Assembly: GCA_014859265.1 (NCBI GenBank)
Contig: JACUUN010000005.1
Location: forward strand, 1-57,626
DNA: 57,626 bases
Direction of reading: 5' to 3'
From: Coriobacteriia bacterium
GTDB lineage: Bacteria > Actinomycetota > Coriobacteriia > Anaerosomatales > SLCP01
A program made the position numbers and the translations under genes. Under the pieces are notes generated by a model. The model had not been told where the DNA came from. It ran no database searches and worked only from the letters and a program-made list of their open reading frames with translations. Below, piece by piece: positions 15,049 through 53,533 of this stretch. The first letter of the stretch is position 1. Each line of letters begins with the position of its first letter.

Positions 15049-15063
15049 GCACAAGCGCGGTCC

Positions 15064-15178
15064 TTCCTTCTCCCATCCAGACTCTAACTGTCGGCCCCGG
15101 GAATCCTCCGGGTCAGCCCCTTTGGGGGGCTCGCGGGCTATCACCGCCGGTGGGGACTTTCACCCCGCCCTGAAGAAA
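15064..15178 (-). ncRNA. FMN riboswitch (RFN element) upstream of ribD
   Basis: Minus strand TTCAGGGCGGGGTGAAAGTCCCCACCGGCGGTGATAGCCCGCGAGC...GACCCGGAGGATTCCCGGGGCCGACAGTTAGAGTCTGGATGGGAGAAGGA matches conserved RFN segments. Confidence 0.97.
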
Positions 15179-15193
15179 GACGCTGCTAGTGTA

Positions 15194-45207: not shown

Positions 45208-45698
45208 CGGTCATCACCTCCAAGTATCACGACGACAGAGACCAAAACCGCCAGCAGTAGGACGCCACCCATCTCGAAATGAGTCAGCATCGGTCCGAGG
45301 AATGCCTCGGTGAGTTCGGCAGGCCCCGACTCTATCCCCTGGTTGACCGAGTCGGGCACAACGCCGCGAAGTGCCATGACGACCATGAAGAACAGCCCGC
45401 CTGCGACAGCGAGTGCTGCGACGTCATGCCGTGTCTCCAGAAGCGGGGATCCGTCGGGTGATCGGTGCACCAGCATGATGGCGAAGATCATCAGCACGAG
45501 CACGCCACCGATGTAGACGAACAATTGGACCACACCGAGGAAGGTCGCACCCCAGTACACGAAGAATCCGGCGACAGCGAGAAGGAAGGCGCCAAGGCCC
45601 ATCGCCATGCGGCTCACATCACGCGCGAACACCGTCACGACCGCGCCGGAGACGGCGACAACGCCAAGGAGGGCGAAGATGATGCTCGCAAGGGTCAC
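45204..45698 (-). CDS. nuoJ: NADH-quinone oxidoreductase subunit J
   Basis: ARDVSRMAMGLGAFLLAVAGFFVYWGATFLGVVQLFVYIGGVLVLMIFAIML. Confidence 0.94.
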   Translation of the reverse strand: MTLASIIFALLGVVAVSGAVVTVFARDVSRMAMGLGAFLLAVAGFFVYWGATFLGVVQLFVYIGGVLVLMIFAIMLVHRSPDGSPLLETRHDVAALAVAGGLFFMVVMALRGVVPDSVNQGIESGPAELTEAFLGPMLTHFEMGGVLLLAVLVSVVVILGGDDR

Positions 45699-47785
45699 CG
45701 GGGCACCTCCCGGACGGCTTCATGCACACCATCGCGCCCGGTTGCCCGCGTGCCCGCGCCATCCCGTAGCATCTCGTGGCGGTCGAAGATGGTCAGGTCG
45801 CGGTGGAAGAAGCTCAACTCGTACTGCCCGGTATGGGTCAGCGCATTGGTGGGACACTGCGGGGCACACAGGCCGCAGAAGCAGCACTTCGAGAGGTCGA
45901 GTTCGTAGTGGGTCACCCGGCGCTCGCCAGGGTCGTCCACGCGCTCTACCTCGATCGCGTAGTCGGGACACGTACGCGCGCAGAACGTGCAGCCCACGCA
46001 CACTTCGGACTGGCACCGCAGACAGCGCATCGCCTCGTTCAAGGCCTCCAGGTGGGTGATACCGAGCTCTATGTGGCGGAAGTCGGTCGCGCGCTCCTCG
46101 GGTTTCGCCATCGGCATCGTGACCCGGCGGCGGTTCGCTTCCACGCCATCGATATGAGCCACCTGGTACTTGTCGTAGACGGGAACGGGACGGGCCACGC
46201 GGCCCTCGGCAAGATCCAGCCCCTCCAGATAGCGGTGAATCGAGGTTGCCGCTTCATGACCGGTGGCGATAGACGCAATGGCACTTCCGGGGCCGGTCAC
46301 AACCTCGCCAGAGGCGAAGACGCCCTCTTGAGCGGTGGTGAACAGAGTGCCATCGACCGGAAGCAGCCCACGCTCCGTGAGTGTCAGATCAGAGCCCGCC
46401 ACCACATCCGCGAGTACCGGACCCTGGCCGACCGAGAAGACCACCATGTCGACTGCCACCTCGGTGTACTCGTCACCAAACTGAGGCGCAAAACGGCCGG
46501 ATGCGTCGAATACCGAGATACACTCGCGCATGCGCATGCCCCGGACCTTGCCCTCGTCGTCGACAAGGACCTCCTCCGGACCGAGCGAGCACATTGCGAT
46601 GACGCCCTCGTCGAGCGCCTCCTCGATCTCCCACGGGTGACAGGGCATCTCTTCTTCCCCTTCGAGGCACGCCAGGCGGACCTCGGTAGCTCCGGTGCGA
46701 AGCGCACAGCGGGCAACGTCGACCGCGACGTTGCCGCCGCCGATCACCAGCACGCGCTTGCCCTGCACGCCCGGGTCGCCCTTCCAGTTCGCGTCGCGCA
46801 GGAACGGCAGCGCCCCGGTCACGCCCTCGGCGGTATGGCCAGGAACCGGGATGATTCGGCTCTCCTGCAGGCCGACGGCGATGAGCACAGCGTCATACTC
46901 GCCTAGAAGGTAGTCGATCGGAACGTCCTTGCCGACCTCAACGCCAAGCTTGAACTCCATGCCGAGAGTCACCAGGTTGTCGATCTCGTCGTGGAGCACC
47001 TCCCGGGGTAGTCGGTACGAGGGCACTCCGGAGTACAGGGCCCCACCCGGCTTCTTCTCCTTTTCGTACACCGAGACCGAGTAGCCGAGCTTCATCAGGT
47101 CGTATGCGGCGGCAAGTCCGGATGGTCCGGAGCCGATGATGGCAATCCGCCGGTTGCGCGTACGCTCCAGCGGCTCGAGCCGCTCGCTCGCCACCTTGAC
47201 GTACTCCTCGTACGCGTGACGGTGGAGCGGCCGGATAGCGATCGGCTCGTCGTAGTAGTTGCGACGGCATGCCGTCTCGCACGGATGGTGGCAGATACGA
47301 CCGAGGACGCCGGGAAGGATGTTTCGGTCCCTGACGAGCTCGTATGCCTCGGCGGGCTTGCCCTCGCCAAGGTAGTATCCCTGGCCGCGAGCGTCGACAT
47401 TTGCCGGGCAGTTGCCGACACACGGGGGCAGCCGGTCGGCACGGTAGAGCCCATCGATGAGAGCGTTGTACTCGGGCGGCGTATCTTCGATGATCGGGAT
47501 GTCGTCGAGACCGAGAATGCCGCGGAGCCGCAGGGCGCCGCGCCACCTCGGTGATAGCGCGACCTTCTCGTGCGGGTAGCGCAGAGTCGTTGCCGGACCG
47601 AGCGCCTTCCTGCCCGTGATGCCCAGGCCGGTCAGCAGCGATTGCCATCGTGCGAAGAAGCCGGCGACACCGCCAGGGAAGTCGTCGGTGACGTTCACCG
47701 TCACGGGGACGACATGAGGAGCCTGCGCGGGCGCACCGATTTCGTGGTTACGGGTATCGGTGTTGTTGTGTGAGTTCACAGCCAT
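45695..47785 (-). CDS. NuoI / GltD-like chimera: NuoI-like N-terminal segment, FAD/NAD(P)-dependent oxidoreductase domain with N-terminal Cys clusters, C-terminal 2x[4Fe-4S] NuoI-like domain
   Basis: Start trimmed to MAVNSHNN. N-term LLTGLGITGRKALGPATTLRYPHEKVALSPRWRGALRL; middle CVGNCPAN...RICHHPCETACRR, IAIIGSGPSGLAAAYDLMKLGYSVSVYEKEKKPGGAL, VLVIGGGNVAVDVAR; C-term CVGCTFCARTCP and CCFCGLCAPQCPTNALTHTGQYELSFFHRDLTIFDRHEML. Confidence 0.9.
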   Translation of the reverse strand: MAVNSHNNTDTRNHEIGAPAQAPHVVPVTVNVTDDFPGGVAGFFARWQSLLTGLGITGRKALGPATTLRYPHEKVALSPRWRGALRLRGILGLDDIPIIEDTPPEYNALIDGLYRADRLPPCVGNCPANVDARGQGYYLGEGKPAEAYELVRDRNILPGVLGRICHHPCETACRRNYYDEPIAIRPLHRHAYEEYVKVASERLEPLERTRNRRIAIIGSGPSGLAAAYDLMKLGYSVSVYEKEKKPGGALYSGVPSYRLPREVLHDEIDNLVTLGMEFKLGVEVGKDVPIDYLLGEYDAVLIAVGLQESRIIPVPGHTAEGVTGALPFLRDANWKGDPGVQGKRVLVIGGGNVAVDVARCALRTGATEVRLACLEGEEEMPCHPWEIEEALDEGVIAMCSLGPEEVLVDDEGKVRGMRMRECISVFDASGRFAPQFGDEYTEVAVDMVVFSVGQGPVLADVVAGSDLTLTERGLLPVDGTLFTTAQEGVFASGEVVTGPGSAIASIATGHEAATSIHRYLEGLDLAEGRVARPVPVYDKYQVAHIDGVEANRRRVTMPMAKPEERATDFRHIELGITHLEALNEAMRCLRCQSEVCVGCTFCARTCPDYAIEVERVDDPGERRVTHYELDLSKCCFCGLCAPQCPTNALTHTGQYELSFFHRDLTIFDRHEMLRDGAGTRATGRDGVHEAVREVPR

Positions 47786-48726
47786 GGGATCACCGCCCCG
47801 ACGATCACAAGTTGCACGAGCGCCATCGGCGTCAGCACTTTCCACGCGGTGCCCATCAGCTGATCGGGGCGCATGCGCGGGTACGTCCACTTCACCCACA
47901 TCATCGCCGTGGCAATGAGGGTAGCCTTCGCTATCAACACGATAACCCCGAGCGCGCCGGGCAGGCCGAGGTAGCCCCCGAAGAAGAACGCAGCCCCGAA
48001 GAGCGACGCAGCGACCAGGCCACCATACTCAGCCATCATGAAGATCGCCCAGCGGATGCCCGAGTAGTCGGCGAAGTAGCCCGCTACCAGCTCCGACTCT
48101 GCCTCGGGGAGGTCGAACGGACCGCGGTTGACCTCAGCGACCGATGAGATGAAGTAGACGACGAACGCGATGAGAGTGAGCGGAATCCACCACCACCGCC
48201 ACTCGTCCATGATGTCGAGCGGGCGCATCGATCCCGCAAGCAGCACGAACGGCAGCACCGAGAGCGTGCGCGGCAGCTCGTAGGAGATCATCTGAGCCGC
48301 GGCCCTCAAGCCCCCGATGGTGGCGTACGTGTTGCGCGACGCCCAGCCGGCGAGCAGGACTCCGATGACGGAAATCGCCGGGACCGCCATGAAGAAGAGC
48401 ACGCCGACGCTCGTGTCCAGCGGTGCAAAGCCGGCGGCGTATGGAATGACCGCGAGTGACATCGCGATTGGCGCGAACACGATGAGCGGCGCGATCCGGA
48501 AGATGCGCACATCGGCCGCGCGCGGGGTGATGTCCTCTTTGAGCACGAGCTTCACGGTGTCGGCGAGCGTCTGCAGAAGCCCGAACGGGCCGAGCTCCTG
48601 GGGCCCGATACGCATCTGGATGCGCGCGGACACCTTCCGCTCGCCCCACACCCCGATCAGCGCGGCCACCGCTATGACAAGGCCGGCCGCCAGGCCGTAG
48701 AAGGCACCCCATGCCAGGCCGCTCAC
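47776..48726 (-). CDS. nuoH: NADH-quinone oxidoreductase subunit H
   Basis: GERKVSARIQMRIGPQELGPFGLLQTLADTVKLVLKEDITP, SSVAEVNRGPFDLPEAESELVAGYFADYSGIRWAIFMMAEY. Confidence 0.96.
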   Translation of the reverse strand: MSGLAWGAFYGLAAGLVIAVAALIGVWGERKVSARIQMRIGPQELGPFGLLQTLADTVKLVLKEDITPRAADVRIFRIAPLIVFAPIAMSLAVIPYAAGFAPLDTSVGVLFFMAVPAISVIGVLLAGWASRNTYATIGGLRAAAQMISYELPRTLSVLPFVLLAGSMRPLDIMDEWRWWWIPLTLIAFVVYFISSVAEVNRGPFDLPEAESELVAGYFADYSGIRWAIFMMAEYGGLVAASLFGAAFFFGGYLGLPGALGVIVLIAKATLIATAMMWVKWTYPRMRPDQLMGTAWKVLTPMALVQLVIVGAVIPWL

Positions 48727-50343: not shown

Positions 50344-50942
50344 CGGGACTCACCCCCTGTGTCCGGGCCGCTTCCACCGAGGCGGGCACCGAGGGAGATA
50401 TCGCCGGGCATCGGCAGGGTGTATGAGCCCTCTCGACGGCGATCCGGAGCGATAGACTCGGTCGCGATCCGCTCGCGGAGTCGCAACACCGCATCCTGGA
50501 GGGACTCGGGACGCGGAGGACATCCTGCGAGGTAGACATCAACCGGAAGGAACTCATCGATGCCGCGGACGACGGAGTACGTGTCGTAGTAGAAGATGCC
50601 GCCCGAGATGGTGCAGTTGCCCATCGCTATGACCCACTTGGGGTCGGCCATCTGCTCGTAGAGGCGCTTGACTGCAGGCGCCATCTTCTTCGTGATCGTC
50701 CCGGCGACGATCATGACGTCGGTATGGCGCGGATCGGGACGGGGGAACGTGCCGTGACGGTCGAAATCGAACTTGTTGAACGAGGCGGCTATAAGTTCCA
50801 TAGCACAGCATGCTGTACCCATCGGCATCGCCCAGAGCGACTTGCCCCGTGCCCAGTCAACCAGCGAATCGACAGTGGACAGGATGATCCCTCCCCCTTG
50901 CCCCCCCTCGAGAGCCTCGCCGAGGCGATCGATCAGCGCCAC
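50340..50942 (-). CDS. nuoB: NADH-quinone oxidoreductase subunit B; GTG start (VALIDRLGEALEGG)
   Basis: MGTACCAMELIAAS, RHTDVMIVAGTITKKMAPAVKRLYEQMADPKWVIAMGNCTISGGIFYYDTY, DVYLAGCPPRPE. Confidence 0.95.
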   Translation of the reverse strand: MALIDRLGEALEGGQGGGIILSTVDSLVDWARGKSLWAMPMGTACCAMELIAASFNKFDFDRHGTFPRPDPRHTDVMIVAGTITKKMAPAVKRLYEQMADPKWVIAMGNCTISGGIFYYDTYSVVRGIDEFLPVDVYLAGCPPRPESLQDAVLRLRERIATESIAPDRRREGSYTLPMPGDISLGARLGGSGPDTGGESR

Positions 50943-51298
50943 TGCAGGACCCCCTTGCGCCACGCGTAGAGAAGGCCAAGAGTAAGCAGACCGACGAAGA
51001 TGCCGACGGCGATGACGCCCCCGGGCGACCCCCGTAGGCCGCTTGCGACGGCGAAGAGCATCGCCGCCTCGGCATCGAAGATCACCAGCAGCAGGGCTAT
51101 GGCGGCGAAACGCAACCTGACCGGCGCCCAGGGCATCCCGGCCTGCGGCATGCCACATTCATAGGGTTCGACCTTCTCGGCCGTGGGGTTTCGCGGTGAG
51201 AGAACGGTGTTAGCGAGGAAGACGACAAGGATGAAGGCGACGGCGGCCGCTGCCAGCCCCACCACGAACAGAACGCTTTCCGCATACGCACCCTGCAT
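50933..51298 (-). CDS. nuoA: NADH-quinone oxidoreductase subunit A; start trimmed to MQGAYAES
   Basis: EKVEPYECGMPQAG...PVRLRFAAIALLLVIFDAEAAMLF. Confidence 0.94.
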   Translation of the reverse strand: MQGAYAESVLFVVGLAAAAVAFILVVFLANTVLSPRNPTAEKVEPYECGMPQAGMPWAPVRLRFAAIALLLVIFDAEAAMLFAVASGLRGSPGGVIAVGIFVGLLTLGLLYAWRKGVLQWR

Positions 51299-51434
51299 GC
51301 GTTCCCCCTGGTTGACCCCTTGTGCCCGCAGCCTCGCCAGCCACGACACAGACGAGTCCCATAGTCCCTGCAAATCCACTGCACACGACGCCAAAGAGCG
51401 TCGGTCCCGGCGCGGTTGGGCTGATTCTCGCAGA

Positions 51435-51486
51435 ACATTCGGTGTTTGTAAACATTGTTACAAACATTGTTACAAACACCGAATGT
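51435..51486. promoter_or_regulatory. 52-bp palindromic operator-like element upstream of the nuo operon, with a Rex-like site and tandem 12-mers
   Basis: Perfect 17-bp arms ACATTCGGTGTTTGTAA / TTACAAACACCGAATGT; centre has ACATTGTTACAA twice in tandem; TTGTAAACATTGTTACAA at 51446-51463. Confidence 0.6.
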
Positions 51487-51511: not shown

Positions 51512-53533
51512 CTACTCGCCCGCTTCTGCCTCCTCTATGGAATCAGCCAGCTCAATCCATTCGCGTTCCATTTCCGCAAGAACTGACTTCAGTTCTGCGT
51601 ATTCCTTCATGGCAGCCGAGAATGCGTCGGGATCCTCGTAGAAAGACGGGTCCGCCATGAGGGATACGATCTCGTCGTGCCGGTGCTGGCCGCTGGCGAT
51701 CCGACTCTCGAGCTCGGCCAGACGTCCCCTGTTCTCGCGGGTAGCACGGTAGGTGCGATTGCGTACCTCCGCCTCGGCACGCTTCTGTTCTTTCGTCTTG
51801 CGCGCGACACCCGGTGCACCCGGACCCTGCTCTTCCGACACCGCGCCATCCCGTGATCGCGCACGCGCGCTGATGACAGGCGCCGCAGGCCCGCTCTGCA
51901 CCTCGGCATCGAGTTTCGCTCGCTTGAATAGGTAGTAATCGTAGTCTCCGGGAAACACCGTCGACCGCCCGCCCCGCACCTCGACTATCTTGTTCGCCAC
52001 CGACCGAATCAGATGTCGGTCATGGGTGATGAGCACGATCGTGCCCTGGAACTGTGCGAGTGCAGCCTCCAGTACGTCGGATGACGCGATATCGAGATGG
52101 TTCGTCGGCTCGTCGAGACAGAGGAACGGCGCAGGCTCCACCAGCATCTTCGCGAGTGCCAGCCGGCAGCGCTCGCCGCCGGAAAGAACACGGACGTGCT
52201 TGTTGACGTCGTCCCCACTGAAGAGGAAGGCGCCGAGCAGCCGGCGGACCTCGGCCTGGGTCCAACCGGGCGCCACGGCATCGAGCTCGTCGAACACGCT
52301 CTTGGCTCCGTCGAGCGCCTCCAGCTGATGCTGGGCGAAGTAGGCGACATCGACGTGGACGCCGTAGCGCCGCTCTCCGGCATCAGGCTCGAGCACCCCG
52401 GCAAGCATCTTCAGCAGCGTCGACTTACCGGCACCGTTCGGTCCGACGAGGGCCACTTTGTCCCCTCGGTAGAGCGTGAGGTCGAGTTTGTCGTACACGA
52501 CGTTGTCCCCGTACGCCTTGTGGACGCCGGCGAGTGTGACGACCTCTTCACCGGTTCGGGGTGGCTGAGGGAACGCGAACCGCACGGTCTTGCGCTCCTC
52601 GGGCAGCTCCACCATCTCTGCCTTGACCTTCTCGATGCGCTTGACGCGATCCTGTGCCTGACGCGCCTTCGTGTTCTTGTAACGGAATCGGTCCACGAAC
52701 GCCTGCATGTGGGCGATCTCCTTGAGCTGCCGCTCGTGCGTGACGCGCTGCTGCTCGCGGACCAGCTCGCGCTGGGCGAGATAGCGCTCGTAGGTGCCGG
52801 CGTACGTGGCAACCCTGCGCTGATCGATCTCGGCGACGTGGTCGACCAGGCCCTCCATGAAAGCCCGGTCGTGGCTCACGAGGACGATGGCTCCCTCGTA
52901 GCCACGCAGGAACGACTCAAGCCACGTCACGGTTTCAAGGTCGAGGTGGTTCGTTGGCTCGTCGAGGAGCAGGACATCGGGCTTGGCCAGCAGCAGCTTG
53001 CCGAGCGCGAGTCGCATCAGCCAGCCGCCGCTGAACTGTTCGGTCGGGCGCTCCAGGTCCGCCTCCTTGAACCCGAGCCCCGTGAGCACCGCGCGCGCCT
53101 CCGCTTCGACCCCGTAACCGCCTGCATGCTCGAAACGGTCGCGCAGCCGCCCGTACTCGGCAAGCAGGCGATCGGCCGTGGCCGGGTCCTCATCCGACAA
53201 CGATACCTCGGCAATCTCGTGCTCGAGCAAACTCAACCGATGCTCGAGGGTGGTGACGTCGGCTGCCGCAGTGAGCGCCTCGGCGAGCACCGTTCGGCCG
53301 TGCATCTCGATGGCTTCCTGCTTGAGGTAGCCGACTACGGCATCCTTCGCGAGCGTGACCGAGCCCTCGTCCGCTGTCTGCTCCCCGGAAATGATTTCGA
53401 GCAGTGTCGTCTTGCCCGCACCGTTGGGGCCGAGCAGCGCGAAGCGGTCGCGTGCGCCGACACGCAGTGACGCCCCCTCGAAGAGTACTCGCTCGCCGAA
53501 GGTTTTCGTCACTGTATCCACGGAGATAATCAC
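51512..53533 (-). CDS. ABC-F family ATP-binding cassette protein (Uup/YdiF-like)
   Basis: Two ABC domains: [16 protein letters not shown]...[11 protein letters not shown] and [16 protein letters not shown]...[15 protein letters not shown]...[11 protein letters not shown]; linker and C-terminal coiled coil. Confidence 0.95.

Follow-up and report, generated by a model that had tools for sequence, protein, structure and literature searches.

What is a long, perfect palindrome doing ahead of a complex I operon, and which protein would read it? In the window, the whole 57,626-nt stretch of Coriobacteriia bacterium DNA analysed here, a sequence-only reading had singled out this palindrome, judged it more likely an operator than a terminator, and proposed cooperative binding at three half-sites. 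The features that frame the question are these:

50933–51298, minus strand: nuoA, first gene of the nuo operon (complex I subunits)
51435–51486, no strand: the 52-bp palindrome, 17-bp perfect arms and an 18-nt centre; absent from the related genomes G001–G004
51450–51473, no strand: two tandem 12-mers, AAACATTGTTAC twice on the plus strand (51450–51461 and 51462–51473)
51469–51475, minus strand: a third, extra half-site TTGTAAC, a direct repeat 12 bp upstream of the left half of the operator core
51512–53533, minus strand: the upstream gene, an ABC-F-like ATPase annotated from sequence, with two ABC ATPase halves

The two arms (51435–51451 and 51470–51486), 18 nt apart, are complementary at 17 of 17 positions, just as the sequence-only reading had described them upstream of nuoA. 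The tandem 12-mers that it reported are also present; its ACATTGTTACAA is this repeat read in a different register. Three TTGTAA/TTACAA half-sites lie within the palindrome, again as described, and the claim of AT-richness held, with GC dropping to 0.47–0.49 versus roughly 0.57–0.70 nearby. Among the window's perfect inverted repeats with loops of 3–40 nt, the palindrome ranks longest (the runner-up has 12-bp arms), and the longest arm in six shuffles was 10–11 bp, compared with 17 bp in the real sequence. The palindrome is real and not a product of chance. It lies 25 nt past the stop codon of the ABC-F gene (51514–51512, minus strand) and 136 bp ahead of the nuoA ATG (51298, minus strand).

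Footprinting of nuoA upstream regions, which the sequence-only reading had named as a check, divided its proposal in two. In 350 bp upstream of nuoA from 46 Anaerosomatales genomes (this one included, its relatives placing it in that order), sites of 7-4-7 geometry scoring at least 12 of 14 were present in 34 of 46 genomes versus 1 of 920 dinucleotide shuffles. An 18-bp core is thus conserved across the order, whereas the 52-bp palindrome is absent in same-family relatives; lack of conservation, which the sequence-only reading had named as a refuting result, counts against the full palindrome and not against its core. The core and the promoter elements around it are as follows:

51446–51463, minus strand: operator core TTGTAAC-AATG-TTTACAA, a 7-4-7 dyad conserved before nuoA and the proposed Rex1 site
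51447–51452, minus strand: −35-like box TTTACA within the operator core, from a promoter scan; position conserved in relatives
51424–51429, minus strand: −10-like box GAGAAT with an upstream TG and a 17-bp spacer from the −35 box, from the same scan; conserved in relatives

The half-sites of this core are TTGTAAC and, as the reverse complement of the right half, TTGTAAA. Relatives almost invariably have TTTACAA as the right half, and 17–18 bp downstream of TTTACA they have a −10-like element (GAGAAT, TAGAAT or TATAAA). The right half of the core doubles as the −35 box of a conserved predicted promoter, which presumably explains why it reads TTTACAA at nuoA and GTTACAA at other targets. In two relatives (L031 and L040), the nuoA upstream region carries an additional TTGTAAC half-site in direct orientation, 21–22 bp upstream of the core dyad.

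A core enlarged into a perfect palindrome of 52 bp was seen in this one species only. Three genomes of the same genus (G001–G003) and one of the same family (G004) have an intact 18-bp core and a single 12-mer, and the flanks of their cores are complementary outward over only 0–4 bp. Neither the outer arms nor the exact third half-site occurs in the nuoA upstream regions of the three same-genus and five other same-family genomes; G005–G008 have no arms, and in G005 alone a degenerate half-site, TTGTAG, stands at the 12-bp offset. Since the window's right flank runs into the same TTCTGCGAGAAT promoter as G001–G003 and its left flank is the one that differs, the left arm was apparently copied from the right by a template switch. 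This pattern, read from one assembly, suggests that the palindrome and third half-site arose recently in the species, most simply by a 12-bp tandem duplication and right-to-left copying of the flank. Given that only the two half-sites of the single 18-bp dyad are conserved, and that the exact third half-site and outer arms are missing in 8 of 8 same-family relatives, cooperative binding through three half-sites has no support from conservation. The arms and third half-site are probably by-products, or at most tune affinity. In other respects the operator is ordinary, and the conspicuous palindrome looks to be a local accident.

When up to 2 mismatches were allowed, TTGTAAYNNNNRTTACAA was found at five places in the organism's own genome (2.34 Mb, 97.7% complete), four of them with at most one mismatch: the window site, C25:19118, C77:6605 and C102:4742. 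The fifth, weaker place is on contig C24. The C77:6605 site lies directly upstream of rex1, which encodes the redox-sensing repressor Rex. The C102:4742 site precedes genes for the small and large subunits of a [NiFe] hydrogenase, and the C25:19118 site precedes a TAT-signal molybdo-oxidoreductase fragment that matches formate dehydrogenase models. In relatives, further targets, named by reading their sequences, include formate-dehydrogenase-like genes, short-chain dehydrogenases and an iron-sulphur protein resembling sulfhydrogenase subunits. With spacing left free from N2 to N7, the motif was found in 57 of 69 genomes of the order versus 1 of 31 other members of the class, and a reversed-pattern control was near zero. 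Spacings among the sites examined were N4 (n = 39) or N5 (n = 14), never N2, N3, N6 or N7. The architecture of a Rex operator, an 18-bp inverted repeat with 7-bp half-sites and a 4-bp spacer, is present at 51446–51463, N4 being the predominant spacing overall and N5 the second.

The candidate binder, Rex1 (P0002 on contig C77), scored 248.9 bits against the NCBIfam Rex subfamily NF003995 (cut-off 126) and matches Rex structures in the PDB with a best E of 4e-44. At 60% identity or more it is found in 57 of 69 genomes of the order, and no Rex match was found in the 31 other class members. Some Rex1-bearing genomes have no nuoA site (G049, G056), and G011 has the nuoA site with Rex1 not found in its 86% assembly; presence and absence within the order make a weak test because the genomes without a detected Rex1 are mostly incomplete. 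The promoter of rex1 itself carries the motif, as would be expected of a Rex operator, both at C77:6605 and in all 30 orthologues read, where a recognisable dyad has N4 spacing in 21 and N5 in 9. All nine N5 dyads, two of them imperfect, come from one family (f12) and replace N4 at the corresponding place in the promoter. A collection of named genomes yielded 16 rex1 genes with 7-4-7 sites, many of them from the same species as the 30 orthologues; five more distant Rex genes in that collection (from Pelotomaculum, Chloroflexi and others) have no 7-4-7 site.

Because the motif stands before rex1 and redox genes, and because of its distribution between the order and the Rex-less class-mates, we consider it most likely the operator of a Rex with the diverged consensus TTGTAAC in place of TTGTGAA. 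The palindrome is a real control site ahead of a respiratory-complex operon. With a probability of about 0.82, we read its inner 18 bp as the predicted operator of an NAD+/NADH-sensing Rex1 that would repress nuo at the −35 box and be released by NADH. From these sequence patterns we infer the binding, the direction of regulation and the NADH response. A Rex1 dimer in its NAD+ state would occupy TTGTAAC-N4-TTTACAA and, sitting on the half that overlaps the −35 box, would keep RNA polymerase off the nuo promoter; rising NADH would then release Rex1 and allow nuo to be transcribed.

How does this predicted operator compare with known Rex systems? The classical Rex operator (ROP), TTGTGAA-N4-TTCACAA, has the same 18-bp 7-4-7 dyad, the same TTGT...ACAA ends and the same position at promoters; overlap with a promoter is indicated here by the consensus scan and the conserved spacing. 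Classical Rex of Gram-positive bacteria is autoregulated and has redox and respiratory targets including nuo (PMC5355995), likewise the pattern here, and in Streptomyces both nuoA1-N1 and rex are repressed by Rex through promoter sites of this kind (PMC5355995). In contrast to the classical ROP, TTGTAAC has A instead of G at base 5 and C instead of A at base 7, N5 spacing also occurs in relatives, and the site is enlarged to a 52-bp palindrome in this species. The half-sites do not match TTGTGAA, and we therefore class the site as a diverged variant. The canonical TTGTGAA-N4-TTCACAA is not enriched in the organism's own genome, its best match having 2 mismatches.

This departure at 2 of 7 bases, the base-5 guanine included, argues against the Rex1 reading. 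Known Rex structures contact the guanine at base 5 of the half-site (PMC8836258, PMC8376106), and binding by Streptococcus agalactiae Rex is nearly abolished when its equivalent is lost (PMC8376106). The Thermoanaerobacter Rex motif, ATTGTTA-N6-TAACAAT (PMC5886521), likewise departs from G at this base, although with T where the motif here has A, and at the Lys49 position the T. ethanolicus Rex carries Gln (IRQDL) where Rex1 has Arg. In T. maritima Rex numbering, Arg occupies the Lys49 position in 30 of 30 Rex1 proteins read, while Rex2 paralogues keep Lys. We rejected the Lys49-to-Arg change as the single-residue cause of the altered motif, since the Rex proteins of B. subtilis and S. agalactiae also have Arg. 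Arg51 of S. agalactiae Rex contacts the guanine of TTGTGAA (PMC8376106), so that Arg is insufficient to account for A at base 5. The Anaerosomatales recognition helix, NPAQIRRDLTHFG, differs at several other positions, none of which we single out. In the literature searched we found no Rex motif for Anaerosomatales; a 2012 comparative study of Rex lay outside that search and may list a similar one.

N5 sites also occur at nuoA: 16 of the 46 upstream regions contain one scoring at least 13, whereas 0 of 920 shuffles reach 12. In many families the N5 site often follows the N4 site at a distance of about 122 bp downstream, and it may act as a second operator or belong to a hairpin in the leader RNA. 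A more elaborate and rather improbable proposal is that the Anaerosomatales Rex follows a shifted code, TTGTAAC, and accepts both 4- and 5-bp spacings; that the nuo N4 site at the −35 box and the N5 site downstream would form a paired operator in many families; and that in this species the upstream site would have become a three-half-site palindrome that changes the redox threshold.

The nuoA leaders of several relatives (L025, L026, L029 and L040 among them; last 70 nt before the ATG) share GTCTnACCGGC and GAGAC around a variable hairpin, a short distance ahead of the ribosome-binding site. In several genomes a TTGTAAC-N5-GTTACAA dyad makes up this hairpin; in others it is a different stem. 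We discarded a 5′-leader RNA element before nuoA as a candidate: the element of the relatives has no Rfam match, its consensus fold is poor, and the strict pattern occurs in only 3 of 69 genomes. The sole Rfam match in the window is an FMN riboswitch at 15061–15181 on the minus strand (RF00050, 111.6 bits).

Could a protein other than Rex1 read the core? Sequence alone cannot name the binder, and the changed consensus fits no characterised Rex, so another regulator that co-occurs with Rex1 in the order would be an alternative, though an improbable one. The paralogue Rex2, encoded on contig C239, comes under this heading, being also a Rex and widespread in the order. However, no TTGTAAC dyad stands upstream of the rex2 genes read, and Rex2 retains the canonical helix QVRKDLSYLG, while the rex1 promoters have the motif throughout. 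The Rex2 proteins of this genome and of relatives (L072–L083) are 35–43% identical to Rex1, and further Rex-like proteins (24–29%) are encoded close by Rex2 in some genomes.

Less probable still is HcpR2, a nitrosative-stress regulator of the CRP/FNR family whose motif, GTAACnnnnGTTAC, has been predicted in Clostridia, Thermotogales and others (PMC1274295). That published motif forms the core of TTGTAACnnnnGTTACAA; its core is nearly identical to the one seen here, and its 4-bp spacer is the same. The genome also has CRP-family genes and hcp, and prismane-family genes (hcp or CO dehydrogenase) were found in 12 of 13 genomes searched. The HcpR2 motif was described at hcp genes, however, whereas the motif here was upstream of hcp in 0 of 12 loci read and is instead located at rex1, nuo, hydrogenase and formate-dehydrogenase-like genes, and not at CRP-family genes. 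The regulator beside the organism's own hcp operon has HcpR1-like recognition residues (VPETLSR), and this HcpR-like gene has a TTGACnnnnGTCAA site, TTGAC-GCGG-GTCAA, about 75 bp upstream, which is the published HcpR1 motif (PMC1274295). A second CRP-like protein read has SRET. Residues 180–181 are PE and RE in the two best CRP-like proteins, three further family matches being weaker; HcpR2 has Pro at position 181 (PMC1274295). On the evidence of the 12 hcp loci and the HcpR1-type site, we disfavour HcpR2 as the binder. At contig C42 of this genome (L183), hcp, together with a ferredoxin-like gene and one more small gene, lies opposite the HcpR-like CRP-family gene with its TTGACGCGGGTCAA site, likely a separate nitrosative-stress regulon.

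That the palindrome is a terminator or an attenuator hairpin for the ABC-F gene upstream is very improbable, and we rejected this reading: although the transcript could fold a stable stem just past the ABC-F stop (region z −4.7), we found no terminator-like site with a GC-rich stem and U-tract, the long arms are missing in same-genus genomes, conservation falls on the bases of the dyad that overlaps the promoter, and transcription of nuo is predicted to start downstream of the palindrome. The earlier preference for an operator over a terminator is well supported: the site is conserved at nuoA across the order, it overlaps a conserved promoter, and its motif recurs ahead of rex and other redox operons.

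The predicted target of Rex1 has a peculiarity of its own. At the NuoI position of the operon (45695–47899, minus strand), the window encodes a 734-aa protein in which a GltD-like pyridine-nucleotide/FAD oxidoreductase is fused to a ferredoxin domain; the fusion is conserved at 63–86% identity in seven members of the order (L159–L165) from several families. Cultured Anaerosomatales strains use hydrogen and formate, and their complex I is without NuoEFG (PMC9686372). Because the order's complex I is without these subunits, the fusion could be an alternative input for NAD(P)H or ferredoxin.

Overall, the site appears to be an ordinary kind of element, the operator of an autoregulated redox repressor at the promoter of a complex I operon, here in a variant found throughout the lineage. 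If the Rex reading is right, it names a redox regulon (nuo, [NiFe] hydrogenase, formate-dehydrogenase-like genes, rex and others) for an order that is widespread in the subsurface but has very few members in culture, and it would provide a natural case of altered Rex DNA specificity and spacer length.
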